Source of the DNA: Spirochaetaceae bacterium
Lineage (GTDB): Bacteria > Spirochaetota > Spirochaetia > Treponematales > Rectinemataceae
Direction: 5' to 3'
DNA length: 64,000 bases
Assembly: GCA_025355995.1 (NCBI GenBank)
Contig: JANXYQ010000105.1
Location: 1 to 64,000, forward strand
The position numbers were made by a program, and so were the translations under genes. The notes below the pieces were generated by a model that did not search any database, had not been told where the DNA came from, and saw only the letters and a list, made by a program, of their open reading frames with translations. Shown here one piece after another: positions 42,365-57,155 of this stretch. The stretch's first letter is position 1; the number at the start of each line of letters is the position of its first letter.

Positions 42365-45300
42365 CTAGCTGCAGCCGGTAGTCGACCCGCACGTTTCGCA
42401 CTTCAAGCAGGTTCCGTTGCGGACGAGGGTCAGGTGGCCGCAGACGGGACAGGGATCGCCCTCGTAGCCCTTCAGCCTCGCGACGCGGCTGCCCTCGCGG
42501 GCCGCCTTGAAGCGCGCCCCCGACTCGTTGTCCGTTCGCGCCATGCGCGCAGCCTTGCCGGTTTCCGGCGGGCGGTGGGAGGGCGAGGCTCCCGCGTGGG
42601 TCGCCGCCGTCCTGTGGCCCGCGACGCCGTTCGGGGAGCGCGAGTCCTGGGCCGTGGTGGACTCGAGGTCCTCCGGCTTCACCTGGCCGAGCTCGTGCCG
42701 CTCCAAATAGGCTATCGCGAGGTCCCGGAATATGTAGTCGAGCACCGAGGTGGCCATCTTGATGTAGTCGTGGCCCTGGACCATGCCGTTGGGCTCGAAG
42801 CGGGTGAAGGTGAAGGCGTCGACGTACTCCTCGAGGGGGACGCCGTATTGGAGTCCGAGCGAGACCGCGATCGCGAAGGAGTTGAGGATCGATCGGAAGG
42901 CCGCCCCTTCCTTGTGCATGTCCAGGAAGATCTCGCCGATCGCCCCGTCGTCGTACTCCCCGGTGCGGACGAAGACCGAATGGCCCCCGATTTTGGCCTT
43001 CTGCGTATATCCCGAGCGGCGGTTGGGCAAGGCGCGGCGCACGCCTCGAGGGGCGGCGGGCATGCCGGGAAGGTCCTGCGCGTGGGCCTCCCTGGAGCCG
43101 CCCGCGTCGCGCGCGACGCCCGCGTCGCGAGAGGCCCGGGGCTCATCCTCCTCGTCCTCGTAATCGTCGAGGCCCCCCGATTCGAGGGCTACGATCGAGT
43201 CGGCGATGACGTCGGCGCCGGGCGCGAGGGCCGATAGGGGCTGCGAGAGCTTCGAGCCGTCCCTGTAGAGGGCGATGGACTTGAGCATCGAGCGCCAGGC
43301 GAGCATATAAGCGCCCTTGACGTCCTCGTAAGTGGCGGTGTTGGGCATGTTGATCGTCTTCGAGATCGCGCCGGAGACGAAGGGCTGCACGGCGGCCATC
43401 ATCGCGATGTGGGCCGTCCAGCTGATCGAGCGCGTGCCCTTCTTTCCCGAGGCCGTCGCGGTATCGAATACGCAGAGGTGGTCGTCCCGGAGGCCGGGAG
43501 CGCCCTCGAGTCCCATAGAGCCGCAGGCGTAGAGCTCCGCCACCTCTATCTCCTCCTCGGAGAAGCCGAGGTGCCTGAGGAGATTGAAGCCCTGCAGGCC
43601 GTAGGTAGCCTCCGGCAGGCCCAGCCCCTCGAGGGCGTCGCCGCCGATGACGAAGGGGGCGAAGGATCCCTCGAGCGAGATCGCGTCCTTGAGCGCGGCC
43701 TCCACCTTGTCTAGGGAGGCCGATGGGAGTCCCCTGGCCTCGAGCGATGCGTAGGAGAGCCTCCCGGGCGCGCCCTTGAGCGTGCCGCGGCCGAGCGCGT
43801 AGGCCTCTATCTCGCCGATGTCCGATTCGGAGTAGCCGAGGGCCCGCAGGGCCGGCGGGACGGACTGGTTGATGATCTTGAAATAGCCTCCGCCTGCGAG
43901 TTTCTTGAACTTGACGAGGGCGAAGTCGGGCTCGACGCCGGTAGTATCGCAGTCCATGAGGAGGCCGATGGTGCCGGTCGGCGCGATGGCGCTCACCTGG
44001 GCGTTCCTGTAGCCGTGCTTCTCGCCTAGCGCGAGGGCCTGGTCCCAGGAGTCGCGCGCGGCCGCGACCAGGTTGGCGGGGCAGGCGGAGCCGTCCAGCC
44101 CCGTCGGGACGACGGTGAGGCCTTCGTATTCGGCGACCGGGGCGGCGTAGGCCGTCCTGCGGTGGTTTCGGATGACTCGGAGCATGGAATCGCGGTTGGC
44201 CGCGTAGCGGGCGAAGGGACCCCAGGCCGCCGCCATGCGGCTGGACTGGGCGTAGGCCTCGCCCGTCAGTATCGCCGAGAGCGCGGCGGACACGGACCGG
44301 CCCTGCTCCGAGTCGTAGGCGAGGCCCATCACCATGAGTAGCGACCCCAGGTTGGCGTAGCCGAGGCCGAGGGTGCGGTAGTCGTAGCTCCGGCGCGCTA
44401 TCTCCTTCGAGGGGAACTGCGCCATGACCACCGAGATCTCGAGGACGGTCGTCCAGATCCTCACGGCGTGCCGGTAGGCCTCATCGTCGAAGCGCTTGGC
44501 CTTCTCGTCGTAGAAGGCGAGGAGGTTGAGCGAGGCGAGGTTGCAGGCGGTGTCGTCGAGGAACATGTATTCGGAGCAGGGGTTGGAGCCGCGTATCTCG
44601 CCGTCGGCGGGGCAGGTATGCCACTCGTTCACGGTGCCGTGGTACTGCAGTCCCGGGTCTGCGCACTTCCAAGCGGCGCGCGCGATCTCGTCCCAGAGCT
44701 CGCGGGCCTTGAGCTTCTTCATCACCTTGCCCGTCGTGCGCGCGATAAGCTTCCAGTCGCCGTCGTCCTGCACCGCCTGCATGAAGGCGTTGTCCAGGCG
44801 CACGGAGTTGTTCGAGGACTGGCCGGATACCGAGTTGTAGGCCTCTCCCTCCCAAGCGGTGTCGTAGCGGGGGAGTGGCGCCCGTAGGGCGCCCGCGGAG
44901 CTTCGCTCGGCGCTAAAATCCACTGACGAGTAGTCGCCCTGGCGGAACATCGAGAGCAGCTGGTGCAGGAAGGGCGCGGGCACTCCCGCACGGAGGGCGG
45001 ACTTGGCCTCGCGGCGTAGGGTCGGATTGAGCTCGAAGGAGAAGCGCTCCTCCTCGCTCGCACCCTCGGGCGCGCCGGAGCGGGCCGCCTCGGCGAGGGC
45101 GGCCGCCCGGGCCCGCAGCAGCCCCGAGCCCGCGGCGAGGCAGGCGACCTTGTACTCCTCCTCGGCCTTCCAATTCGTGTAGGACTCGATATCCGGGTGG
45201 TCCGCGTCGAGTATCACCATCTTGGCCGCGCGCCGAGTCGTGCCGCCCGACTTGATGGCGGAGGCCGAGCGGTCGGCTATCTTGAGGAAGGAGAGGAGTC

Positions 45301-46045
45301 CGCTCGATACGCCGCCCCCCGAGAGCCCTTCCCTCTGGCCGCGTATCTTGGAGAAGTTGGAGCCCGTGCCGGAGCCATACTTGAAGAGCCTCGCCTCGCG
45401 GGTGACGAGGTCCATGATCCCGCCATCGTTGACTAGGTCGTCCTCTATATTAAGGATGAAGCAGGCATGGGGCTGGGGACGCTCATAGGCCGAGAGGCTC
45501 TTGGTCACCTCGCCGGTGGCCGGGTCCACGTAGAAATGCCCCTGGGCGGGACCCTCGATGCCGTATACCGCATGGAGCCCCGTATTGAACCACTGAGGGC
45601 TGTTGGGAGCCGCCATCTGCCGGCTGAGCATGAACAAGAGCTCGTCGTAGAAGGCTGAGGCGTCGTCCTCGGAATCGAAATAGCCGGCCTTTTTCCCCCA
45701 CTCGGCCCAGGTATAGGCGAGCCGATGGAAGACCTGGCGAGCATCCGTCTCGCCGCTGCTCGACGCGGTTTCTCCCCCCGAGCCCGTGCTCGAGGGGGAA
45801 CGCTGGGCCTTTGGGACGAAAGCGGTCCAGGCCTCCGCCTTGTCAGCGGGTATTCCCGCCTTGCGAAAATATTTTTGCGCTATAATGTCAGTCGCTATCT
45901 GGCTCCAGGTCGAGGGAACGATCGCTCCCTCCATATTGAAGACGGCTTTACCGTCGGGATTGCGAATTTCGCTTTTTCGCGCGACCCACTCGATTCCATC
46001 GTAGGGTCCGGCGCCCTTTTTTGTAAATATTCGCTCGAATTTCAC
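42365..46045 (-). CDS. nrdJ: adenosylcobalamin-dependent (class II) ribonucleotide reductase
   Basis: The 1226-residue enzyme reduces ribonucleotides to deoxyribonucleotides with B12, without oxygen. It contains [48 protein letters not shown] with the catalytic Cys and the Asn/Glu pair, and [20 protein letters not shown]. The C-terminus has a zinc ribbon [13 protein letters not shown]...[11 protein letters not shown] with a redox Cys pair. A charged low-complexity linker ([17 protein letters not shown]) joins the core to the C-terminal part. The start is a GTG preceded by GGAGG. An NrdR-type box stands about 65 bases upstream. Confidence 0.95.
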
Positions 46046-46263: not shown

Positions 46264-47856
46264 ATGAAATTAGCCGCAGTCATCTATGCAGGATCCTTGT
46301 CGCCCCACGCGCTCAAGCCTATCGCCGGCGGCGATTCGGCCTACGAACGCTGTCTTGGCTTCGTTCGCCGGCTTCCGGGCCTCGAGCGCGCCGTCGTCGC
46401 GGAGGGGATGCTGGCCCTGCCCGAGGGAGGTTTCCCCAAGGTACGACGGGAGCGCTGGACCCTCGACCTCCTCCTCGAGGAAATGGCGGCGGTCGGCCAG
46501 GGCGTCGACGCGGTCCTCCTCGCCTGGGCGGACCAGCCCTTCCTCGACTCGGTACTCGCCGCCAAGATGCTGGAGGATTTCCGGCGATACAGGGCCGAGT
46601 ACGGTTTTGCCGACGGCTATCCCGTAGGTCTCTCCGCCGAGCTGCTTTCGCCCCGGGTGATCCAGGCGGTCCGGGGCCTCGCCTCGTCGCTACCTCCCGG
46701 AACCGGGCCCGGGACCGGTTCCCAGATCGAGAGGGACTCCCTGTTTACCGCGATACAGAAGGACATCAACGCCTTCGATATCGAGACCGACATATCCCCG
46801 GTCGACCTCCGCGACTTGAGGCTCACCCTCGCCTGCGACACGAAGCGGAACGGATTGCTCGTCGAGAGGCTCGCCTCCGCAGGCGTTTCCGACGCCGCGA
46901 GCGCCCTGGCGTCGATACCCGAGAATCTCGGCCTCCTGCGGACCCTGCCCGCCTTCGTGCAAGTGCAGGTCGCGTCGGGTTGCCCCCAATCCTGCAAGCT
47001 TTGCGCCTACCCGGCCTTCGGCCCCCGATTCGCGGGCGGCGGAGGGAGCGTGCTCGAGCTGAAGCGGGAAATGCCGCGCGAGGATTTCGCCTCCGTCCTC
47101 GACCAGGTCGTCGACCTCAGCGAGGATGCCGTCATCGACATTTCCCTCTGGGGGGAGCCGAGCCTCCACTCGGATATCCAGGGCCTCGTCGGCGAGGTCA
47201 TGGCGCGGCCCACGCTCTCCCTCATCGTCGAGACTTCCGGGCTCGGTTGGATCCGCGGTTCCGGCGAGGGCGCCGCCGATCCGATCCGGGCGCTGGCCGG
47301 CCGCTATGCCTCGGAGGGACGCATCGATTGGATCGTCTCCCTGGACGCGGCGAGCCCCGAGCTCTACGCGGAGCTCCGCGGGCCGGGCTTCGAGGAGGCG
47401 ACGGCTTTCGCCGAGAGGCTCATCGATCTCTTCCCCGGCCGCGCCCACGTGCAGATGGTCAGGTCGAGGGAGAACGAGGCCGAGCTCGAGGCTTTCTGGC
47501 GAGGATGGAAGAAGAAGACGGACAAGGTGATCGTGCAGAAGTACTCGCGCTCCGCCGGCCTCCTGCCCGAGCGGAAGGTCTCGGACCTCTCGCCCCTGAC
47601 GCGGCGGCCCTGCTGGCACCTCAAGCGGGACCTCTCCGTGCTCGTCGACGGGACCGTGGCCCTCTGCCGCGATTATTCGCAGGGCGACACGAGGCTGGGC
47701 GGCGCCTTCGGGCCCGGCTCGGCGGGCCTGGCGGCCGCCTGGGCCGCCGGCGAGAGCTTCCACGCGGCCCACATCGCGGCCTGCCGCTCGGGCGACGGCG
47801 CCCTCTTCCCCCGACCCTGCGAGGCTTGCGATGAATACTATACCTACAACGCTTGA
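46264..47856 (+). CDS. spiro-SPASM radical SAM protein with nucleotidyltransferase-like N-terminus
   Basis: The 530-residue protein has two parts. Residues 1-200 resemble a sugar nucleotidyltransferase fold (LAAVIYAGSLSPHALKPIAGGDSAYER) but the G-x-G...R...K loop is degenerate, so activity is doubtful. From about residue 235 is a radical SAM domain with cluster motif GCPQSCKLCAYP, and ISLWGEPSLHSDI. The C-terminus has the SPASM-type Cys pattern (RRPCWHLKRDLSV...VALCRDY, PCEACDEYY) for auxiliary iron-sulfur clusters. This architecture is the spirochaete-restricted spiro-SPASM family, whose substrate is unknown. It begins the cluster 46264-54620 and its end overlaps the GT gene by 26 bases. Confidence 0.85.
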   Translation: MKLAAVIYAGSLSPHALKPIAGGDSAYERCLGFVRRLPGLERAVVAEGMLALPEGGFPKVRRERWTLDLLLEEMAAVGQGVDAVLLAWADQPFLDSVLAAKMLEDFRRYRAEYGFADGYPVGLSAELLSPRVIQAVRGLASSLPPGTGPGTGSQIERDSLFTAIQKDINAFDIETDISPVDLRDLRLTLACDTKRNGLLVERLASAGVSDAASALASIPENLGLLRTLPAFVQVQVASGCPQSCKLCAYPAFGPRFAGGGGSVLELKREMPREDFASVLDQVVDLSEDAVIDISLWGEPSLHSDIQGLVGEVMARPTLSLIVETSGLGWIRGSGEGAADPIRALAGRYASEGRIDWIVSLDAASPELYAELRGPGFEEATAFAERLIDLFPGRAHVQMVRSRENEAELEAFWRGWKKKTDKVIVQKYSRSAGLLPERKVSDLSPLTRRPCWHLKRDLSVLVDGTVALCRDYSQGDTRLGGAFGPGSAGLAAAWAAGESFHAAHIAACRSGDGALFPRPCEACDEYYTYNA

Positions 47857-48790
47857 CGCCGGGACCGTACCGTATACGGTCGTAGGCGCCCCGAAGCCCG
47901 GCGGGGGAGGGGAAGCTCCCGCCCTTTCGGTAGTCCTCCTCAACCGCGGCTCGAGGCTCTACAGGGGCGACCCTATCGCGGAGCTCGAGCGGGTCGGGCT
48001 CGGCTCGGTCGTCTCCGTCGAGCCGAAGCCCGAGTCCCTCGACCTCGAAGCCCTCTCCGCGCGTCACCCCGGCGCGCGCTTCCTCCTCCTCTCCGAGCCC
48101 GCCTCCCCCGGCGCGCAGATCAACCTGGCGATCCGGGAATCGCGCGGGCCTTACGTCTTCGTGCTATGGAGCGACATGGCCCTCGCGGCCCAGGGCCTCT
48201 CGAGCCGCTTCTTCGAGCGGCTGGCCGAGCGCGACATCCTATGCCAGGCCCCCGACCTCTTCGCCAGGGGAGGGGAGCAGGTCCCGGCGGCGGCCTCGCC
48301 GGCCTTCAACCGCTCGAGCCTCAAGGTGCTGAGCCTCCCCCCCGCCAAGGACGGCACGAGGAGCCTCTTCCCCTTCGACTACGCGGGAATCTACTCGCGC
48401 GAAAAATTCGTGCTGACGGGCGGCTTCGACGCGAGGCTCTCCAATCCCTACTGGCAGAAGCTCGATTTCGGTTTCCGCGCCTGGCTCTGGGGCGAGGAGA
48501 TCCGCATCGCCCAGGCGCTCAAGGTTTCCTACGCGGACGCCCCGACGAGCGAGGACGAGACTCCCGACGAGTGCTATAAATGGTTTTGGCTCAAGAACCT
48601 CGCGCCCAGCTTCCGCGGGGACTGCGGGGCCATAGGGCCTTCCCGCTTCTGGTCCTACCTCAGGAGCAGGGGAGGCGGCGCCCCCTCGGCCCTCGGCGAA
48701 TTCCGCGCGGCTCGCGAATGGGTCCGGAAGAACCGCTTCCGCTTCCGCACCGACGCCGCCAGCCTCGTCGACCTCTGGGAGGAGTCGTGA
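47831..48790 (+). CDS. glycosyltransferase family 2-like protein
   Basis: The 319-residue protein has a GT-A fold: SVVLLNRGSRLYRGDPIAELER, a degenerate metal motif (VFVLWSDMAL) and an acceptor region with FDYAGIYSREKFVLTGGFD, common to family 2 transferases. Residues 240-280 contain a Trp-rich stretch (YKWFWLKNL). It is overlapped by 26 bases at its start by spiro-SPASM and ends as GTGA with the cytidylyltransferase. It probably adds a sugar to a lipid or protein carrier within the same pathway. Confidence 0.65.
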   Translation: MNTIPTTLDAGTVPYTVVGAPKPGGGGEAPALSVVLLNRGSRLYRGDPIAELERVGLGSVVSVEPKPESLDLEALSARHPGARFLLLSEPASPGAQINLAIRESRGPYVFVLWSDMALAAQGLSSRFFERLAERDILCQAPDLFARGGEQVPAAASPAFNRSSLKVLSLPPAKDGTRSLFPFDYAGIYSREKFVLTGGFDARLSNPYWQKLDFGFRAWLWGEEIRIAQALKVSYADAPTSEDETPDECYKWFWLKNLAPSFRGDCGAIGPSRFWSYLRSRGGGAPSALGEFRAAREWVRKNRFRFRTDAASLVDLWEES

Positions 48791-49464
48791 GCGTGACCGC
48801 GATAGTCCTGCAGGCCCGGATGGGCTCGACCCGCCTGCCCGGCAAGGCCCTCCTTCCCCTCGGAGGCTCGACCCTCGTCGAGCAGGCGATGGCGCGCCTG
48901 GCCCTCGTGGAGGCCGACGCCCGCGTCCTCGCCACCGACCATGCGAGCGCGCTGGCCCTGGCCCCCGCGGCCGAGCGGCGAGGCTTCGATCTCCTCGTCG
49001 GCCCCTCCGAGGACGTTCTCGCGCGCTATTGCCTCGCGGTCAAGCGCTTCGGCATCGATCTGGTCCTGCGCGCCACCGGTGACAATCCCCTGGTCTCCCA
49101 CGAGCTCGCGAGCCTCCTCCTGGAGCGCCGAGCCTCCTCGCCCTCGGACTACTCCGGGTACAGGGGGATGCCGACCGGGATGGGCGTAGAGCTCGTCGCC
49201 GCCGACGCCCTCCTCAGGGCCGAGGCCGAGGCCAAGGACCCTTCCGAGCGCGAGCACGTCTGCCCCTATCTCTACGGCCACCCCGAGCTCTTCCGCGTGG
49301 ACCGCCCAGAAGCCCCGAGCGAATACCTCGCAGGCGGCGCGAGCGTCACGGTGGATACGGAGGCGGACTACGAGGCCGTCCTGAGGATCTACGGCGCGTT
49401 GTACGCCGGCATCCCGATACCCAGCGTCGCCGTCCTCGTCTATATTAGGAGCGGGAGAAAATGA
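48787..49464 (+). CDS. SpsF-like cytidylyltransferase (CMP-sugar synthetase family)
   Basis: The 225-residue protein begins TAIVLQARMGSTRLPGKALL, the nucleotide-binding signature of spore-coat polysaccharide SpsF and CMP-NeuAc/KDO synthetases, and has LRATGDNPLVS with metal-binding Asp. It should activate an acidic sugar, such as a nonulosonic acid, as its CMP derivative. I start at the GTG at 48787, which follows GGAGGA and overlaps the upstream stop as GTGA. It overlaps the SpsG-like gene by four bases. Confidence 0.8.
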   Translation: MSVTAIVLQARMGSTRLPGKALLPLGGSTLVEQAMARLALVEADARVLATDHASALALAPAAERRGFDLLVGPSEDVLARYCLAVKRFGIDLVLRATGDNPLVSHELASLLLERRASSPSDYSGYRGMPTGMGVELVAADALLRAEAEAKDPSEREHVCPYLYGHPELFRVDRPEAPSEYLAGGASVTVDTEADYEAVLRIYGALYAGIPIPSVAVLVYIRSGRK

Positions 49465-51359
49465 GCCGATCGATACTGCTGGTCCCTTCGGTCTCGAAGG
49501 GCAACGGCTCGGGACACCTCGTGCGCTGCCTGTCCCTGGCGCGCGCCCTCGGCGCGCGCGCCTCCGTCTACGTTCCCGAGAGCCCCGAGGAGGGCTCCCG
49601 CGGGGCTTGCTGGACAGCCGCCGAGCTCTCGCTGTCCTATGCCCGCGAGCTCGCGGGCGCCAGCCTGCTGACCGCTCTCCCGAGCGCCTCGCGGCGCAGC
49701 CCCTGGGACCTCATCGTGCTCGACCGGCGCGCGACGAGCCTGCCCGAGCTCGCCGCCTGGGAGCGCTATGCCCCTGTCCTCTCGATAGACGAGGGGGGGG
49801 AGGCCAGGCAGCGCGCGCAGTATCTCCTCGACATCCTGCCGCGCCATCCCCGCGCGGGAGGGGGCGAGCCCAACCGCGCGAGCCGCGGCCTCCTCGACCT
49901 TCCGCGCAACCGCCGCGCCAAGCCCCGGGAATTCAGGCGGATCCTCGTCTCCTTCGGCGGCGAGGACGGCTACGGCCTCACGCTGAGCCTGGCACGCATC
50001 CTGCTCGCCGAGGGCCTCGCCCTGCCCGAGGACCTCACGATCGTATCCGGGGCCCTTAGGAGGGGAGCGCCTCCCCTCGGCCTCGACGGGGTCACCGTCC
50101 TGGGTCCCGTGCAGGACCTGAAGGAGCACCTGGCCCGCTACGACCTCGTGCTCACGCAGTTCGGCCTCACCGCCTTCGAGGCAGCCTGGGCCGGCTGCGG
50201 CGTGATGCTCCTCAACCCGACGCGCTATCACAGGGACCTCGCGCGGGTCGCCGGCTTCCCGGAGCTCGGGGTCCTGAGCCCCGACCGCGCGGCGCTGAGG
50301 CGCCTGATCCGCTCTCCCGCGGAAGTCCTCGCCGCGCTCGAGCGCCTCGTGCCGGAGGAGCCCGAGTCACTCGCGGATTTCATCGCCGGCCTCGAGCCCG
50401 CGGGAAGCCGCGATTGCCCGAGCTGCGCGAGCGCGTCCCGGCGCGCCCTATACCGCGATCCGGCGAAAAGCTATTTCCGCTGCTCGGCTTGCGGAACGGT
50501 CTATATGGTTCGATTCTCCCGCGGAAGGGAGAATCCCTACAAGAAAAGCTATTTCTTCGAAGAATATCGAAACCAATACGGCAGGACCTATCTAGAGGAT
50601 TGGCCGGCCCTGACGGCGCTGGCCGAGCCCCGCCTCGAGATAGTCGAGGCCCTCGCCTCCGCCAGCCTGGGCAGGAGCAGGGGGCTCTCGGTTCTCGACG
50701 TCGGCTGCGCCTACGGCCCCTTCCTCGCGGCGGCCAAGGCGCGCGGCCAGGAGCCCTACGGCCTCGACGCCGCCGAGGAGGCGGCCGCTTACGTGCGCCG
50801 CGAGCTGGGCATACCCGCCGCCGTCGGCGATTTCATCGACCCGGCCGCCGCGTCGACCTTTGGAGGGCCCTTCGACGTCCTGTCCATGTGGTACGTGGTC
50901 GAACACTTCGATCGCCTCGACAAGGCCCTGAGGAACGCCGCCGCCCTCGTGAGGCCGGGCGGGATCCTCGCCCTCTCCACGCCTTCGATGGAAGGGGCGT
51001 CCGGGCGCTTCGGCGGGCGAGGCTTCTTCGAGAAGAGCCCCGAGGACCACTTCACCCTATGGGAGCCCTCGAGGGCGAGGGCCCTTCTCAAGGCCTACGG
51101 ATTCCGGATCGAGCGCATGCGCATCACCGGCCACCATCCCGAGCGCCTGCCGGGGCTGCGCTTCCTCGCGTCGCGCGTGCGCCCGGGGCCTTTCGACCGC
51201 TTGCTCGCGGGGCTCGGCCGCCTAGTATCGCGCGCCTTCGCCCTCGGCGACACCTTCGAGATCTATGCCGTCCGCGAGGGCCCCATCCCCCTGGGCCTCT
51301 CCGCCGCCAGGGGCGGAACGGCCCCCGACGTCAGGGCCGAGCGGGGCGCGCCGCGATGA
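49461..51359 (+). CDS. SpsG/PseG-like protein fused to a zinc-ribbon SAM methyltransferase
   Basis: The 632-residue protein is a fusion. Residues 1-310 are a GT-B fold of the SpsG/PseG nucleotide-sugar hydrolase type (GNGSGHLVRCLSLARAL, ILVSFGGEDGYG, QFGLTAFEAAWAGC). Residues about 318-350 form a zinc ribbon (DCPSCASAS...RCSACGTVY). From about residue 400 a class I methyltransferase follows (SVLDVGCAYGPFLAAAKARG, DVLSMWYVVEHFD, FTLWEPSRARALLKAYGF). A sugar or lipid head group made by the cluster may be processed and methylated by one polypeptide. It overlaps its neighbours by four bases each side. Confidence 0.78.
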   Translation: MSRSILLVPSVSKGNGSGHLVRCLSLARALGARASVYVPESPEEGSRGACWTAAELSLSYARELAGASLLTALPSASRRSPWDLIVLDRRATSLPELAAWERYAPVLSIDEGGEARQRAQYLLDILPRHPRAGGGEPNRASRGLLDLPRNRRAKPREFRRILVSFGGEDGYGLTLSLARILLAEGLALPEDLTIVSGALRRGAPPLGLDGVTVLGPVQDLKEHLARYDLVLTQFGLTAFEAAWAGCGVMLLNPTRYHRDLARVAGFPELGVLSPDRAALRRLIRSPAEVLAALERLVPEEPESLADFIAGLEPAGSRDCPSCASASRRALYRDPAKSYFRCSACGTVYMVRFSRGRENPYKKSYFFEEYRNQYGRTYLEDWPALTALAEPRLEIVEALASASLGRSRGLSVLDVGCAYGPFLAAAKARGQEPYGLDAAEEAAAYVRRELGIPAAVGDFIDPAAASTFGGPFDVLSMWYVVEHFDRLDKALRNAAALVRPGGILALSTPSMEGASGRFGGRGFFEKSPEDHFTLWEPSRARALLKAYGFRIERMRITGHHPERLPGLRFLASRVRPGPFDRLLAGLGRLVSRAFALGDTFEIYAVREGPIPLGLSAARGGTAPDVRAERGAPR

Positions 51360-52924
51360 CCGTTTTCATCCTCGGGGCCGGAGTAATGCAGATACCCGCC
51401 ATACGCTCTGCGAAGGAGCTCGGCTGGACGGTCGTCGCGGCGGACGCCAATCCCTCCTCGCCCGGCGCCGCCCTGGCGAACCGCTTCCTCCCCGTCGACC
51501 TGAAGGACAGGGATGGCTTGGCGGCCGCCGCCCGCGGAATCCGCGATGAGCTGGGGCTCGGCGGCGTCTTCACCGCCGGGACCGATTTCTCGGCCTCCGT
51601 CGCTTGGGTGGCCCAGGAGCTCGGCCTTCCCGGCATCTCCTTCGAGACGGCCCTCAAGGCCTCGGACAAGCTCATGATGCGCGCCTCCCTGGCCGCCGCC
51701 GGCGTGAACTCTCCCCGCTTCGCCTCCGCTTCAGCCGTCGACGATCCCTCCCTCGCCGCCGCGGGGCTCGATTTCCCCCTCGTCGTGAAGCCGGCCGACA
51801 GCATGGGCGCCCGCGGCTGCCGCGCCGTCCGCGACCGGCGCGAGCTCGCGGAGGCGATAGCGGCGGCCCTCCCGCATAGCCGATCGGGCAGGGCCATCGT
51901 CGAGGAATACCTGGAGGGCCCCGAATTCTCCATCGACGCCCTCGTCGACGGGGACGAGGTACGGATCCGCGGGGTCGCCGACAGGCATATCTCATTCGCC
52001 CCGTATTTCGTGGAGCTGGGCCATACGATGCCCAGCTCCTATCCTCCCGAGGTCATCGCGGAGGTCCTGCGCGTCTTCCGCGAGGGAGTCGCCGCCCTGG
52101 GCATTCGCCTCGGCGCCGCCAAGGGCGATATCAAGTACTGCCCCTCGCGCGGCCGGGCCGTGGTCGGCGAGATAGCCGCCCGCCTCTCGGGCGGCTTCAT
52201 GTCGGGCTGGACCTACCCCTACGCGAGCGGAATAGACGTCACCGGGGAGGCCTTGCGGCTCTGCGTCGGCCAGCGCCTCGATCCCGAGCCAGCCGCGGAC
52301 AGGGGCTGGGTATCGGCCGAGAGAGCCTTCATTTCGATACCGGGAACAGTGGCCTCCGTCCTCGGCTGCGTGGAAGCCGAGAGGCTGCCTTATGTAAAGC
52401 AGCTCTTCCTGCGAGCGGCGCCCGGGGATAGCGTCGTCTTTCCCTCGAATAACGTGGAGAAGTGCGGCAACGTCATCAGCCAGGCTCCGACCAGGGAGGC
52501 CGCCGTCCAGGCCGCCGAGAGCGCGGCCAGGGCGGTGATCCTGCGCCTCGTTCCCTCCGATCCCCGGACCGAGGCCTACCTCGCGGACGAAGGCTCCTGG
52601 CCACCCCCCGCCTTCGCGCTCGAAGGCGCCGCTGCGCGCGAGCTGGCCGAGCTGCCCGAGTACCTGGACGGCGGCGCCGGCGTCCAGGGCGGTGTCGCTC
52701 CCTTCGCCCCGGCCGCCGCCGTCGAGGGACGCGATTGGAGCGGCCGCGGCTTCGCTGAATCGGCGGCCCTCGCGGCGAGCCTCGCCGGGACCCCCGGCTC
52801 AAGGGTGCTAGCCGGCCGTTTTTGGCGCGCCCTCGCGCGCGGCGGCCTCCAAGGCGCCCTCTATGTCCTCGATACGGCCGCGCCGGCGGCCAAGGCTCCA
52901 GGGGAAGCGAGAGCTCGGCGATGA
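51356..52924 (+). CDS. ATP-grasp family ligase
   Basis: The 522-residue protein has a Rossmann N-terminus (TVFILGAGVMQIPAIRSAK), the ATP-grasp core (FPLVVKPADSMGARGCR, VEEYLEGPEFSIDALVDG) and the metal-binding segment VGEIAARLSGGFMSGWTYPYASG. Family members join an amino group to a carboxylate using ATP; the layout resembles carbamoyl-phosphate synthase-like and PylC-type ligases. It likely adds an amino acid to the sugar, or couples a carboxylated product, in the cluster. The last 150 residues are alanine-rich and not conserved. It overlaps the previous stop as ATGA, and the amidase start likewise. Confidence 0.75.
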   Translation: MTVFILGAGVMQIPAIRSAKELGWTVVAADANPSSPGAALANRFLPVDLKDRDGLAAAARGIRDELGLGGVFTAGTDFSASVAWVAQELGLPGISFETALKASDKLMMRASLAAAGVNSPRFASASAVDDPSLAAAGLDFPLVVKPADSMGARGCRAVRDRRELAEAIAAALPHSRSGRAIVEEYLEGPEFSIDALVDGDEVRIRGVADRHISFAPYFVELGHTMPSSYPPEVIAEVLRVFREGVAALGIRLGAAKGDIKYCPSRGRAVVGEIAARLSGGFMSGWTYPYASGIDVTGEALRLCVGQRLDPEPAADRGWVSAERAFISIPGTVASVLGCVEAERLPYVKQLFLRAAPGDSVVFPSNNVEKCGNVISQAPTREAAVQAAESAARAVILRLVPSDPRTEAYLADEGSWPPPAFALEGAAARELAELPEYLDGGAGVQGGVAPFAPAAAVEGRDWSGRGFAESAALAASLAGTPGSRVLAGRFWRALARGGLQGALYVLDTAAPAAKAPGEARARR

Positions 52925-54033
52925 GCTCGCCCTATGTGAGGGCGGCGGCGTTCTGCGCCTGCCTCGCGCTCGCCCGGCCTCTGCCTGCCGCCCCGATATC
53001 GGCCGGGACAGCGCCGCCAGCGCCGGCGACGCCAGCGCCGGCGACGCCCGCGTCGGTGACGCCTCAGGCGGCGGGGCAGATCGCTGGCCGCCTGAAGGCC
53101 CGGCTTTCCTACGATCCCCTCACCGGATACGGCGTTTTCGAGAAATCGGGGAACAGGCTGGCCTTCGCTCGCGGAGTGCCCTGGGCGATATTCGATTGGA
53201 ACAGGTCCCTCCCCCTCGACCCTCCGTCCGACGCCGAGGGCGGCCTTTCCTTCACGGCCGCGTCGGGAGCGGCCATCGAGAAGGCCTTCGCGGAGGCCGA
53301 AGCCGTCGCTCGCTCTCATTTTTCCGTCGCGGCCATACTCATAGACCCGGGCCACGGCGGCAAGGATCCCGGGGCCATAGGCGAGCAGGCCGCGGGCGGC
53401 AAGAAGCTGCGGGTGGTCGAGAAGGACGTCACCCTCGATATCTCCCGAAAGCTCTTCGACCTGCTCAAGGCCAGGTTTCCCGACAAGCGGATCCTGATAA
53501 CGAGGGAGGGGGACAGTTACCCCAGCCTGGAGGATCGCGTCGACATGGCCAATTCCGTCGAGCTCGCAGCGAACGAGGCGATCATATACGTGTCGATCCA
53601 CGCCAATTCCTCGTTCAACAAGAACGCGAAGGGCTTCGAGGTCTGGTACCTCAACCCGGAATACCGGCGTACCCTCGTCGACGCCAAGAAGCCGGGAGGG
53701 CCCGGGCAGGAGATCGCCCCGATACTGAATGCGATGCTCGAGGAGGAGTTCACGACCGAGAGCATTATCCTCGCCCGCGACATCATGTCCGGGCTCCAGT
53801 CCGAAATCGGGGCGGAGAGCCCCAACAGGGGCATCCGCGCCGACGAGTGGTTCGTCGTCCGCAACGCCCGGATGCCCTCGGTCCTCATCGAGGCCGGCTT
53901 CGTGACCAATCCAGACGAAGGGAAGCTACTCGCGCGGGACGATTACTTGCTCCGCGTGGCGGACGGCGTGTATACTGGGCTCGTGGATTTCGTCGGCTAC
54001 TTCGAGAGCATGAGAGGCGCACCTTCCCAATGA
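52921..54033 (+). CDS. N-acetylmuramoyl-L-alanine amidase (Amidase_3)
   Basis: The 370-residue protein has a signal peptide and an N-terminal Pro/Ala/Thr-rich tract encoded by a 15-bp tandem repeat. The amidase core has zinc ligands DPGHGGKDPGA and E in VEKDVTLD, then SIHANSSFNKNAKGFEVWYL and catalytic Glu in SVLIEAGFVTNPDEGKLL. It cleaves the amide between N-acetylmuramic acid and the stem peptide in the periplasm, as in cell separation. It starts at the ATG overlapping the ATP-grasp stop, so it is translationally linked to the glycan cluster. Confidence 0.9.
   Translation: MSSPYVRAAAFCACLALARPLPAAPISAGTAPPAPATPAPATPASVTPQAAGQIAGRLKARLSYDPLTGYGVFEKSGNRLAFARGVPWAIFDWNRSLPLDPPSDAEGGLSFTAASGAAIEKAFAEAEAVARSHFSVAAILIDPGHGGKDPGAIGEQAAGGKKLRVVEKDVTLDISRKLFDLLKARFPDKRILITREGDSYPSLEDRVDMANSVELAANEAIIYVSIHANSSFNKNAKGFEVWYLNPEYRRTLVDAKKPGGPGQEIAPILNAMLEEEFTTESIILARDIMSGLQSEIGAESPNRGIRADEWFVVRNARMPSVLIEAGFVTNPDEGKLLARDDYLLRVADGVYTGLVDFVGYFESMRGAPSQ
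53016..53045 (+). repeat. two tandem 15-bp repeats within the amidase gene
   Basis: Two identical copies of GCCAGCGCCGGCGAC encode alternating Pro-Ala-Thr residues in a linker; copy number may vary between strains. Confidence 0.6.
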
Positions 54034-54620
54034 AACGATTCCTGGACGCGCTGCGTCGATTCCTGCTAGCCTCCGGCCGAGCTCTCGCCGCGGCCTGGGA
54101 GGCGTCCCTAAAATGGCTTTCCGTGCCGGTGAACCTCTGCCTGGCCGTGCTAGGACTCGTCTTCGTCGTGTCCTTCGGCTCCTGGGCCATAGGCGACCGC
54201 TTCGAGGAAGCGGTCCTCTTCTTCCCGGACAAGCTGGACAAGCTCCGAGGCGAGATTCGCGATATCCCGCATACCTCCGGCCCAGAGGCGCGGGCCGAGC
54301 TCATCGCCTCCGAGTTCCTCCTCGGCCCCAAGGACGCCTCGCTTTTCTCCGCCTTCCCCCCCGGAGTGAGGGTAGAGTCTGTCCTTTATCGCAAGGGAAG
54401 GCTTTTCGTCGATATATCCTCCGATGCCGCCTTCGCCGACCCGGCCGACCCGAATACGCTGAAAACGCGAATCCTGACCGGAATCGCAGCCATGGATCGA
54501 AGTTTAAAGGCCGCGTTGCCCGGCCTAAAGCGCCTATCGCTCACGATAGGCGGCAAAGAACCCTATGCTGTCGGCCTCAAGGCCGAAGGGGGGAAGGGGA
54601 TAAAAAAAACCGGAAAATAA
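54030..54620 (+). CDS. GerMN-domain lipoprotein-like or membrane-anchored protein
   Basis: The 196-residue protein has one N-terminal membrane helix (PVNLCLAVLGLVFVVSFGSWA), then a GerMN domain (ASLFSAFPPGVRVESVLYRKGRLFVDISSD). GerMN domains occur in spore germination and in envelope proteins that bind wall or lipoglycan, and commonly accompany amidases. It follows the amidase with a four-base ATGA overlap. Its final lysine-rich tail (GIKKTGK) ends at the flaA promoter. Confidence 0.8.
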   Translation: MKRFLDALRRFLLASGRALAAAWEASLKWLSVPVNLCLAVLGLVFVVSFGSWAIGDRFEEAVLFFPDKLDKLRGEIRDIPHTSGPEARAELIASEFLLGPKDASLFSAFPPGVRVESVLYRKGRLFVDISSDAAFADPADPNTLKTRILTGIAAMDRSLKAALPGLKRLSLTIGGKEPYAVGLKAEGGKGIKKTGK

Positions 54621-54648
54621 TTGACAAAGGTTTACGGCAGCGTATACT
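54621..54648 (+). promoter_or_regulatory. flaA: strong promoter of flaA
   Basis: TTGACA (54621-54626), 16-base spacer and TATACT (54643-54648), starting directly after the previous stop codon. A second TATAAT occurs at 54679-54684. The ATG is at 54709 after AAAGGAG. Confidence 0.8.
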
Positions 54649-54708
54649 TCCTTACTAAATAGTGGATAACCGGCACTGTATAATGTGTGCAATGAAAGGA
54701 GTTATTGC

Positions 54709-55794
54709 ATGAAAAGCAAACTAATCGTCGTCGCACTGGCGCTTTTCCTCGTGGGCGCGTTCACCGCGATCTCTGCCGACGAGGCAGTGCTCATCGATTT
54801 CTCTCTCCTCAAGGCCGACATCAAGGCCGATCCGCTCAACCAGGGCAAATTCCTAGAGAACAGGGCCACCATGATGGACTTCTCGGGAACCGCCGGCGCG
54901 AGTTACACGGAAGAGCAGAAGGCTCAGATGCGCACCTCCCTCGCGATCAGGAACTGGGACGTACTTCTCGCCTCCTCCTCGAGGAGCAACCTGAACCAGT
55001 CCCTGTCCCTCACCGCCGAGGCCCAGATCGCGTCCGACGCCAAGCAGTTCGCGGGCAAGCCCGTCATGGGCTTCCGCGTCCGCTTCCCCGTGGCGGAATT
55101 CAATAGCTGGGCCAAGATCGCCCCGCCCTTCGAGATCCCCGCGTTCGAGCCCAAGGCGAGCGTGGACGACCAGGGCGTCATCTCTCCCGCCAAGGACCAG
55201 GGCACCGATCCGGCTAACGCGCGGCTCACCCGGTTCGAGGGCAGCTACGACGCGAACACGAAGATCACGACCGCCCTAGGCATCGTGAAGAACGTCGGCG
55301 TCATCAAGTCGGTAGCTGTCACGGTCAAGGGACTCAATTTCCCCCATGGCCTCTCGGTCGTCCTGCTCGATTCCGACGGCAACGCCCAGAACGTTTTCAT
55401 GGGCTACCTGAACTTCGACGGCTGGAAGGAGCTCCGCTGGGATAATCCCGCCTACGTGCAGGACGTCCGCAATCGCGAGCTCCGCGTATTCCCGCTATAT
55501 CCCAAGACCACTCCGATGGTCAAGTTCGACGGATTCGTGGTAACCCGCGATGCGGCGAACGAGGGCGGGGATTTCGTGGCCTACATAAAGGACGTCAAGA
55601 TCCTTTACGACAAGGCCGTTCTCGAGCCGGTGCGCGACATCGACGACGAGGCTCTGTGGGGCATCGTCGGCAAGAAGGAATCCGAGCGCAAGAGCATGGA
55701 GTCCAAGCGCTTCGGTTCCCAGCAGGTGCTGCGCTACCTAGAGAAGATGAAGCAAGAGAACAAGAGCGACTTCACTCCTCCCGCCACTAAGTAA
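54709..55794 (+). CDS. flaA: flagellar filament outer layer (sheath) protein FlaA
   Basis: The 361-residue protein has a signal peptide (MKSKLIVVALALFLVGAFTA, cleaved near ISAD) and the spirochaete FlaA opening VLIDFSLLKADIKADPLNQG. The C-terminal region has WDNPAYVQDVRNRELRVFPL and AYIKDVKILYDKAV. FlaA proteins form the sheath of the periplasmic flagella of spirochaetes. It has its own strong promoter and a perfect terminator, suited to high expression. It lies right after the spiro-SPASM cluster, so its glycosylation by that cluster is a reasonable hypothesis. Confidence 0.93.
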   Translation: MKSKLIVVALALFLVGAFTAISADEAVLIDFSLLKADIKADPLNQGKFLENRATMMDFSGTAGASYTEEQKAQMRTSLAIRNWDVLLASSSRSNLNQSLSLTAEAQIASDAKQFAGKPVMGFRVRFPVAEFNSWAKIAPPFEIPAFEPKASVDDQGVISPAKDQGTDPANARLTRFEGSYDANTKITTALGIVKNVGVIKSVAVTVKGLNFPHGLSVVLLDSDGNAQNVFMGYLNFDGWKELRWDNPAYVQDVRNRELRVFPLYPKTTPMVKFDGFVVTRDAANEGGDFVAYIKDVKILYDKAVLEPVRDIDDEALWGIVGKKESERKSMESKRFGSQQVLRYLEKMKQENKSDFTPPATK

Positions 55795-55824: not shown

Positions 55825-55854
55825 GGCCGGGACGAGAGTCCCGGCCCTTTTTTT
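55825..55854 (+). terminator. intrinsic terminator of flaA
   Basis: GGCCGGGAC and GTCCCGGCC (9 bp, 4-base GAGA loop) followed by a run of T residues. Confidence 0.95.
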
Positions 55855-55886: not shown

Positions 55887-57155
55887 GTGACCGCGAAGGG
55901 AGAGGGACTCGAGGCGATACCCGATAGGGGCGCGCTGAAATGCGACTACGAGGAGCGAAAGCCGGGCTACGGGCGGCTCCTCTCCGACTTGGAGGGGCGG
56001 ATACGCTGCGCCCTGGAGAAGGATTCCCTCGGGCCGATCATCAAGGGCAGGGTGAAATCCTTCGACTCATGGTACTCCAAGCGCATCCGCCTGCTCAGGA
56101 GCGCCCGCTCCTCGGGCCAGGAGCCTATACCCATCGCCGATATCGTCGCACTGAGGGTGGTCTGTCCCTTCCTGGGCGACCTGACGATGGCGGAATCCGC
56201 GATCTGCGCCTCCTTCAAGGTCCTGGAGGTCGAGCGAAAGGGCTCGGAGCGCTCATTCAGGGAATTCGGCTACGAGTCGATCCACCTCCTCGTCGAGTTG
56301 CCGGCGGACCTTCGCCAAGACGCCAAGGGCTTCGACAGCCCCGCCTTCGAGGTGCAGCTCAGGACCATCCTCCAGGAGGCCTGGGCGGAGGTGGAGCACG
56401 AGCTGGTCTACAAGGCCGAATTCACTCCCTTCGACGAGCCGATGAAACGCAAGTTAGCCGCTCTCAACGCCAATCTCTCCCTCTCGGATATCATCTTCCA
56501 GGAAATCCTCGATTATCAGCGAAGGCTCACCTCTGCGCTGGAGCGCAGGAGATCGGCCTTTTACGGGAAGATCGAGGACGCGATGGACAAGCCCCTCGAT
56601 CTCGATAAAGAGGGCGCAGGTACCCCCCGGGACAAGGCGGTCGCGGAGAGGCGGGCCCTCGGCCTGGAGAGGGGCAGGATCGCGAGCATGGACGATCTAC
56701 TGTTGTCCGCCTTGACCGCGCACAACGGAGAGGATTACGAGGCCGCCTCGCGCATCTACAGCGCGATCCTGGCGCAAAAGCCGGAGAAGGACATAGCTGC
56801 GGTCGTCTTCAAGCATAGGGGCATGGCCTTTTTCTCCCAATCCCTCTATCAGGAAGCCATCGCGGATTTCAGCTCGAGCCTCGAGCTGGCTCCAGGCGAC
56901 CACAAAGCGGCGTATTACCGGGGCGTGGTGCGGAGCGTGCTCCAGGATTTTGCCGGCGCGATAGGCGATTTCGACTTAGCCCTCTCGATTCATCCCTACC
57001 ACTTCTTCTCCCTTTATCGGCGAGCGATGGCCTATTGGCATCTCGGCGACTTCGCTCAGGCGCTCGCGGATTCGGAATCCGCGCTCAAGCTTGAGCCCGA
57101 TAACGCCTCCGCGATCCTGCTCAAGGCTATGGCCATGCGTAGCCTAAAGATGTAG
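55887..57155 (+). CDS. RelA/SpoT (p)ppGpp synthetase domain fused to TPR repeats
   Basis: The 422-residue protein has a RelA/SpoT nucleotidyltransferase domain at about residues 30-220: GRVKSFDSWYSKRIR, ADIVALRVVC, FGYESIHLLVEL, FEVQLRTILQEAWAEVEHEL. This is the synthetase part; the hydrolase (HD) and TGS/ACT domains are absent, as in small alarmone synthetases. Residues about 280-420 hold about four tetratricopeptide repeats (AVVFKHRGMAFFSQSLYQEA, AAYYRGVVRSVLQDFAGAI). The TPR part may dock the enzyme on a partner. Start is a GTG preceded by GGAGGGAG; no promoter is clear after the flaA terminator. Confidence 0.85.
   Translation: MTAKGEGLEAIPDRGALKCDYEERKPGYGRLLSDLEGRIRCALEKDSLGPIIKGRVKSFDSWYSKRIRLLRSARSSGQEPIPIADIVALRVVCPFLGDLTMAESAICASFKVLEVERKGSERSFREFGYESIHLLVELPADLRQDAKGFDSPAFEVQLRTILQEAWAEVEHELVYKAEFTPFDEPMKRKLAALNANLSLSDIIFQEILDYQRRLTSALERRRSAFYGKIEDAMDKPLDLDKEGAGTPRDKAVAERRALGLERGRIASMDDLLLSALTAHNGEDYEAASRIYSAILAQKPEKDIAAVVFKHRGMAFFSQSLYQEAIADFSSSLELAPGDHKAAYYRGVVRSVLQDFAGAIGDFDLALSIHPYHFFSLYRRAMAYWHLGDFAQALADSESALKLEPDNASAILLKAMAMRSLKM

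Follow-up and report, generated by a model that had tools for sequence, protein, structure and literature searches.

What does a row of seven overlapping genes that ends beside flaA do for a spirochaete cell? The row lies in the window analysed here, a stretch of 64,000 nucleotides from a Spirochaetaceae bacterium (contig JANXYQ010000105.1), and it opens with the gene for spiro-SPASM, a protein family (TIGR04321) confined to spirochaetes whose function has so far been unexplained. The first-pass annotation had taken all seven genes for a single pathway making an unusual acidic sugar, methylated or amino-acid-substituted, for the flagellar sheath or the wall, and its description of the row, with overlaps of 26 or 4 bases and flaA 88 bases further on, was confirmed at every coordinate (Table 1). 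The row consists of two interleaved modules plus flaA as an adjacent, separate unit. Module 1 comprises spiro-SPASM, SpsF, the SpsG-methyltransferase fusion and an ATP-grasp enzyme; module 2 comprises a GT2-like protein, an amidase and a GerMN protein, and is best explained as serving the cell envelope. We consider it likely that module 1 both makes and activates a methylated, N-acylated nonulosonic acid, which becomes O-linked to serine or threonine residues of FlaB, with module 2 acting at the envelope and flaA standing apart. This ties spiro-SPASM to the glycosylation of FlaB.

The distribution of these genes was examined in 80 genomes, including that of the window (G000). The family labels used here (Borrelia-like, f6; Treponema-like, f2; Sphaerochaeta-like, f9 and f12) were inferred. 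Two of the genomes we take to be those of Treponema denticola ATCC 35405 (G165) and T. pallidum (G056). The FlaA of G165, with 349 residues, agrees with PMC9481697. Spiro-SPASM occurs in 63 of the 80 genomes, and all 63 also have a strong NeuB match, a Maf-type gene (PF01973), flagellin and FlaA; among the 17 genomes lacking spiro-SPASM, three have NeuB and three have Maf (Fisher p ~5e-13, uncorrected for relatedness). These 17 comprise eight genomes without flagella (f9 and f12, taken as Sphaerochaeta-like), six Borrelia-like genomes (f6), and three incomplete ones (G109, G164 and G217), all with a Maf-type gene and two of them (G109 and G217) with NeuB. The window's genome itself encodes a NeuB protein with NeuB and SAF domains (E=5e-53) and gives four PF01973 matches. 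In the six Borrelia-like genomes, flagellin and FlaA are present and spiro-SPASM, NeuB and Maf are all missing; the module is thus missing where FlaA is present, a pattern that fails to fit glycosylation of the FlaA sheath.

The same distribution bears on another possibility, namely that the sugar of module 1, nonulosonic or related, is destined for a surface polysaccharide or lipid rather than for flagellin. SpsF and SpsG are named after spore-coat polysaccharide genes, and the amidase and the GT2-like gene share the row, which would suit such a role. However, the module is absent from all flagella-less groups tested (f9 and f12), and Maf-type transferases and FlaB acceptor serines are distributed in the same way as the module, making this alternative unlikely.

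The best reading is that the target is the FlaB filament core, modified by nonulosonate O-glycosylation, and not the FlaA sheath, because spiro-SPASM tracks NeuB, Maf and the FlaB acceptor serines and does not track FlaA. In T. denticola, the three FlaB proteins carry a 450.2 Da glycan that is essential for filament assembly (Kurniyati 2017, cited in PMC9481697), and the title of Wyss 1998, cited in PMC13144727, has the flagellins of treponemes, including T. pallidum, glycosylated and the sheath proteins not. Putative glycans have been placed at the core-sheath interface on Leptospira FlaB1 (PMC13144727). The FlaB glycosite motifs are VEVSQL and DRIAS, and B. burgdorferi FlaB has other residues at the two serine positions (PMC7431986). 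The three FlaB proteins of the window's genome contain both motifs (VEVSQL; DRIAS or NRIAS), as do those of T. pallidum and most of the others examined, and all four Borrelia-like FlaB proteins have E and D in place of the two serines. Exceptions are a paralogue in G138 (VEINQL, DRIAD), which lacks both serines, and one in G078, which lacks the first. The link to flagellar glycosylation put forward in the first-pass annotation is therefore supported, while its choice of the FlaA sheath or the wall as the target is not supported, given the Borrelia-like genomes.

Gene order was compared across 43 same-class loci from 11 families and 37 loci of other classes. The GT2-like gene comes next after spiro-SPASM in 43 of the 43 same-class loci, SpsF, SpsG and the methyltransferase lie downstream in 41, the ATP-grasp and amidase genes are in the row in 36, and the whole set through flaA runs downstream on one strand in 35, spread over 10 families, so that the order is not due to chance. 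In the other classes, SpsF is downstream of spiro-SPASM in 28 loci and SpsG in 19, with neither the GT2-like gene nor the ATP-grasp gene adjacent. The phylum-wide core therefore consists of spiro-SPASM, SpsF and SpsG. The fusion of SpsF, SpsG and the methyltransferase into a single protein, seen in 22 Treponema-like loci, supports a shared pathway. A profile search across 296 genomes of the phylum placed TIGR04321 above its cut-off in 228; by this threshold the description of the cluster as spirochaete-specific holds, but several spirochaete groups have no spiro-SPASM. When NeuB neighbourhoods were compared across families, no conserved partner genes were found. In two Treponema-like loci (L112, 10660-13034; L113, 10732-13178), the gene after NeuB encodes a 137-residue protein with a weak DnaJ-like match, and the gene after that a protein of 650-680 residues, which has no Pfam match in L112.

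The division into two modules is seen where spiro-SPASM is missing. The Borrelia-like locus has the order GT2, amidase, a 173-residue frame and flaA; the f9 genomes keep GT2, amidase and GerMN together, and three of four f12 genomes keep GT2 with amidase. The opposite division occurs in T. denticola, T. pallidum and G276, where amidase, GerMN and flaA occupy a different locus from spiro-SPASM, GT2 and the SpsF-SpsG-methyltransferase fusion. In T. denticola, spiro-SPASM lies at about 1,938,412-1,939,971 on the minus strand and the ATP-grasp gene at 2,247,687-2,249,369. The T. pallidum locus found here agrees with PMC4403809, which lists a SPASM protein (TPASS_0285), a methyltransferase (TPASS_0289) and a flavin mononucleotide (FMN)-dependent dehydrogenase (TPASS_0291). 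We assigned the GT2-like protein to the envelope module because Borrelia-like and flagella-less genomes keep a close homologue next to the amidase. This protein has no Pfam or NCBIfam match and is identified by its predicted fold, of GT-A type with ppGalNAc transferases nearest. It was rejected as the FlaB transferase, since it is kept in genomes without NeuB and flagella and every spiro-SPASM genome has a Maf-type gene. The candidate metal motif of this GT-A protein is WNDM/WSDM, not DxD, and it is not conserved in several homologues (alignment A3).

These data also weigh on the view that all seven genes form one pathway decorating the FlaA sheath or the cell wall. The tight overlaps, the ending of the row at flaA and its retention in most same-class loci are what such a pathway would predict. 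Nevertheless, it is very unlikely: GT2 and amidase are retained where the sugar genes are missing, even in flagella-less genomes; the Borrelia-like genomes have FlaA without spiro-SPASM, NeuB or Maf; the title of Wyss 1998 has sheath proteins unglycosylated; the row is split in T. denticola, T. pallidum and G276; and flaA has its own promoter-like site. A single seven-gene sheath pathway was accordingly rejected.

Spiro-SPASM itself has an unexpected architecture. The window protein scores 454 bits against TIGR04321 (cut-off 250; residues 5-530) and 28.7 against the radical SAM profile PF04055, whose gathering cut-off is 29.5. Its predicted model (predicted local distance difference test, pLDDT, 93) has a nucleotidyltransferase-like domain followed by a radical SAM barrel. 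The N-terminal domain (about residues 1-225) is SpsF-like, keeping the DxPFLD, ADGYPxG and RLxL elements and not the SxRLPGK catalytic loop, and the SpsF profile matches it at ~1e-9 in some homologues. Among solved structures, the closest by sequence to the C-terminal half is BtrN (4m7t; E=1.6e-18), and the closest to the N-terminal half is a Leptospira cytidylyltransferase (1e-9); by fold, SuiB, the Leptospira cytidylyltransferase, BlsE and BtrN are nearest. The CxxxCxxC motif is intact in the window protein (CPQSCKLC, residues 240-247, in the first part of the TIM barrel). Seven conserved C-terminal cysteines, as in a SPASM domain with its two auxiliary clusters, were looked for, and only four near-invariant ones were found (C450, C468, C519 and C522), in a Twitch-like arrangement.

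Radical SAM chemistry cannot be the common function of the family, since CxxxCxxC is intact in 34 of 79 homologues and absent from 45 (L057, with an extra residue inside the motif, was scored as absent). On a tree built quickly with the motif columns left out, and having two long branches, the motif state changes at least 11 times, six of these changes being forced by starred branches; with an intact ancestor and midpoint rooting, 16 losses are obtained. Ratios of nonsynonymous to synonymous substitution rates (dN/dS) are 0.09-0.25 overall for motif-less pairs and 0.21 for an intact pair, with the barrel also constrained, and this purifying selection shows that the motif-less proteins are functional. 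One might suppose instead that every spiro-SPASM is an active radical SAM enzyme and that the missing motif is an artefact of gene models or alignment; the family does score as radical SAM/SPASM, and it has retained the barrel. This is hardly credible, because the four C-terminal cysteines align in 79 of 79 homologues (with one changed residue in two), yet the CxxxCxxC site holds other residues in the 45, complete genomes included. The two changed proteins (L055 and L066; related, f2, genus g7) have serine as the last of the four cysteines.

Judging from these comparisons, spiro-SPASM is a decayed SpsF-type domain joined to a radical enzyme that has been switched off in many lineages while the rest was kept. 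What appears new in the sequences is this combination of an SpsF-like N-terminus without its catalytic loop, a BtrN-like C-terminal half, and repeated loss of CxxxCxxC under purifying selection. We found no literature on the family under the names TIGR04321 or 'spiro-SPASM'. To our knowledge, it is unusual for a radical SAM motif to be lost repeatedly while selection still acts on the rest of the protein. We tentatively propose that spiro-SPASM is a non-catalytic partner, in which the dead cytidylyltransferase domain and an auxiliary iron-sulphur (or zinc) site would control or scaffold the formation of cytidine monophosphate (CMP)-nonulosonate by SpsF, its radical function being an optional sugar tailoring in some lineages that was lost many times independently. 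That spiro-SPASM is itself the FlaB glycosyltransferase, acting through a CMP-sugar-binding N-terminal domain, would suit the module's phylum-wide member with its nucleotide-sugar-type domain, but is highly improbable, as Maf-type genes occur in every spiro-SPASM genome among the 80 and the fold is unlike known transferases.

The following pathway is suggested by gene content. A PseB-like dehydratase and a PseC-like aminotransferase, encoded elsewhere, would make a diamino sugar; the SpsG domain would release it from uridine diphosphate (UDP); NeuB would condense it with phosphoenolpyruvate; the ATP-grasp enzyme would form an amide between an amine and a small hydroxy acid; the methyltransferase would methylate the product, supplying a methoxy group; SpsF would load CMP onto the sugar; and a Maf-type transferase would attach it to FlaB. 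The N-terminal domain of spiro-SPASM would, without catalysis, bind the CMP-sugar or pair with SpsF. Where CxxxCxxC is intact, as in the window, the relationship to BtrN suggests an extra step, in which the barrel may act on the sugar or its acyl group by oxidation or deoxygenation; in motif-less lineages, spiro-SPASM would work without radical chemistry. Since T. denticola lacks the motif, its glycan does not need a radical step. The sugar foreseen by the first-pass annotation thus remains acidic, probably methylated and amide-substituted, although the sheath or wall is not supported as its destination.

LAL-type ATP-grasp enzymes form amides. ATP-grasp orthologues (E <1e-79) were present in 24 of 24 spiro-SPASM genomes tested, at other loci in T. 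denticola and T. pallidum, whereas six genomes without spiro-SPASM gave weak, unrelated matches (three) or none (three). In other classes, ATP-grasp orthologues are fused to an FMN-dependent hydroxyacid dehydrogenase (PF01070; L237 670-2841, L239 327-2585 and L240 317-2650), and these fusions suggest that the acid joined may be an alpha-hydroxy acid. Such an acid would agree with the N7 acyl group of the T. denticola glycan, 2-methoxy-4,5,6-trihydroxyhexanoyl; by our own arithmetic, 274.117 + 176.068 = 450.185 Da. PF01070 was rejected as a pathway marker, being too widespread. The window's genome has PseB- and PseC-like genes (E=8e-55 and E=3e-103), and so do T. pallidum and almost every other spiro-SPASM genome tested, although G003 shows no PseB-like gene at the threshold used; they are absent from f6, G149, G226 and G281, and present in G224.

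Several observations weigh against this pathway and its target. G109 and G217, both incomplete, have NeuB and Maf without spiro-SPASM; the co-occurrence counts are not independent events; and the NeuB and Maf genes lie outside the cluster. The PseB and PseC matches fall below the equivalog cut-offs and so do not fix the configuration of the sugar, and the SpsG domain matches PseG weakly. The organism is uncultured, and its flagellin glycan is predicted from genes. The flagella-less G227 (f12) has a strong NeuB without spiro-SPASM or Maf, pointing to nonulosonate use outside flagella.

Table 1. Features of the gene row and its surroundings (window positions)
Feature	Position	Strand	Remarks
Spiro-SPASM (TIGR04321)	46264..47856	+	N-terminal SpsF-like domain, radical SAM barrel, Twitch-like C-terminus
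GT2-like, GT-A-fold glycosyltransferase-like protein	47831..48790	+	26-base overlap with spiro-SPASM; assigned to envelope module
SpsF, CMP-sugar synthetase	48787..49464	+	GTGA link; CTP_transf_3 5e-26; GSTRLPGK loop intact
SpsG/PseG-like + SAM methyltransferase fusion	49461..51359	+	ATGA link; SpsG/PseG-like, about residues 1-325 (PseG 1e-6, weak); SAM methyltransferase, about residues 326-632 (Methyltransf_23 6e-19)
ATP-grasp amide ligase (LAL_C2 type)	51356..52924	+	ATGA link; LAL_C2 and ATP-grasp matches
N-acetylmuramoyl-L-alanine amidase	52921..54033	+	ATGA link; Amidase_3 6e-45; envelope module
GerMN ('Germane') protein	54030..54620	+	ATGA link; Germane 1e-7; N-terminal hydrophobic stretch; envelope module
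Sigma-70-type promoter-like site	54621..54648	+	TTGACA-16-TATACT; 11/12 consensus positions; directly upstream of flaA
flaA, flagellar sheath protein	54709..55794	+	FlaA 2e-70; from ATG at 54709
Intrinsic-terminator-like hairpin with T run	55825..55846	+	3' of flaA
RelA/SpoT-domain protein with TPR repeats	55887..57155		downstream of flaA
Class II ribonucleotide reductase with TSCPD domain	42365..46045	-	divergently oriented

Because a near-consensus sigma-70 site precedes flaA and a terminator-like hairpin follows it, flaA probably lies outside the operon as its own transcription unit; three sigma-70-type sites were counted in the region, against 1.0 in shuffled sequence. Many loci with this order also have the RelA/SpoT-domain gene after flaA, and the ribonucleotide reductase gene likewise stands beside the row, divergently oriented, in L050, L052 and L056.

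Among known systems, the pseudaminic and legionaminic acid pathways of flagellin glycosylation (Campylobacter, Helicobacter, Aeromonas, Clostridium) share with the spirochaete set a dehydratase, an aminotransferase, a PseG-like hydrolase, NeuB, a CMP-synthetase and Maf, whereas the spirochaetes add spiro-SPASM, an ATP-grasp ligase and a methyltransferase domain, with the genes spread over several loci. BtrN, a radical SAM 2-deoxy-scyllo-inosamine dehydrogenase, resembles the C-terminal half of spiro-SPASM in its CxxxCxxC barrel and Twitch-type cysteines, but it has no SpsF-like domain, and many spiro-SPASM homologues have lost the motif. The N-terminal fold resembles SpsF and the L. borgpetersenii cytidylyltransferase (6oew; TM-score 0.70-0.73, depending on the target), unlike which it has no catalytic loop. 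A possible analogy is human GMPPA/GMPPB (7d72), where a dead nucleotidyltransferase paralogue regulates a live one, although sugar and nucleotide differ there and a spiro-SPASM/SpsF complex is inferred only. The closest parallel is the FlaB O-glycan system of T. denticola, with FlaB as its target, NeuB, PseB/PseC-like genes, an ATP-grasp enzyme and the row of spiro-SPASM, GT2 and SpsF-SpsG-methyltransferase; it differs from the window in having the last three domains fused, the ATP-grasp gene and flaA elsewhere, and the radical SAM motif lost. The analysis locates the module in both T. denticola and T. pallidum, and it distinguishes this module from the envelope module and from flaA.

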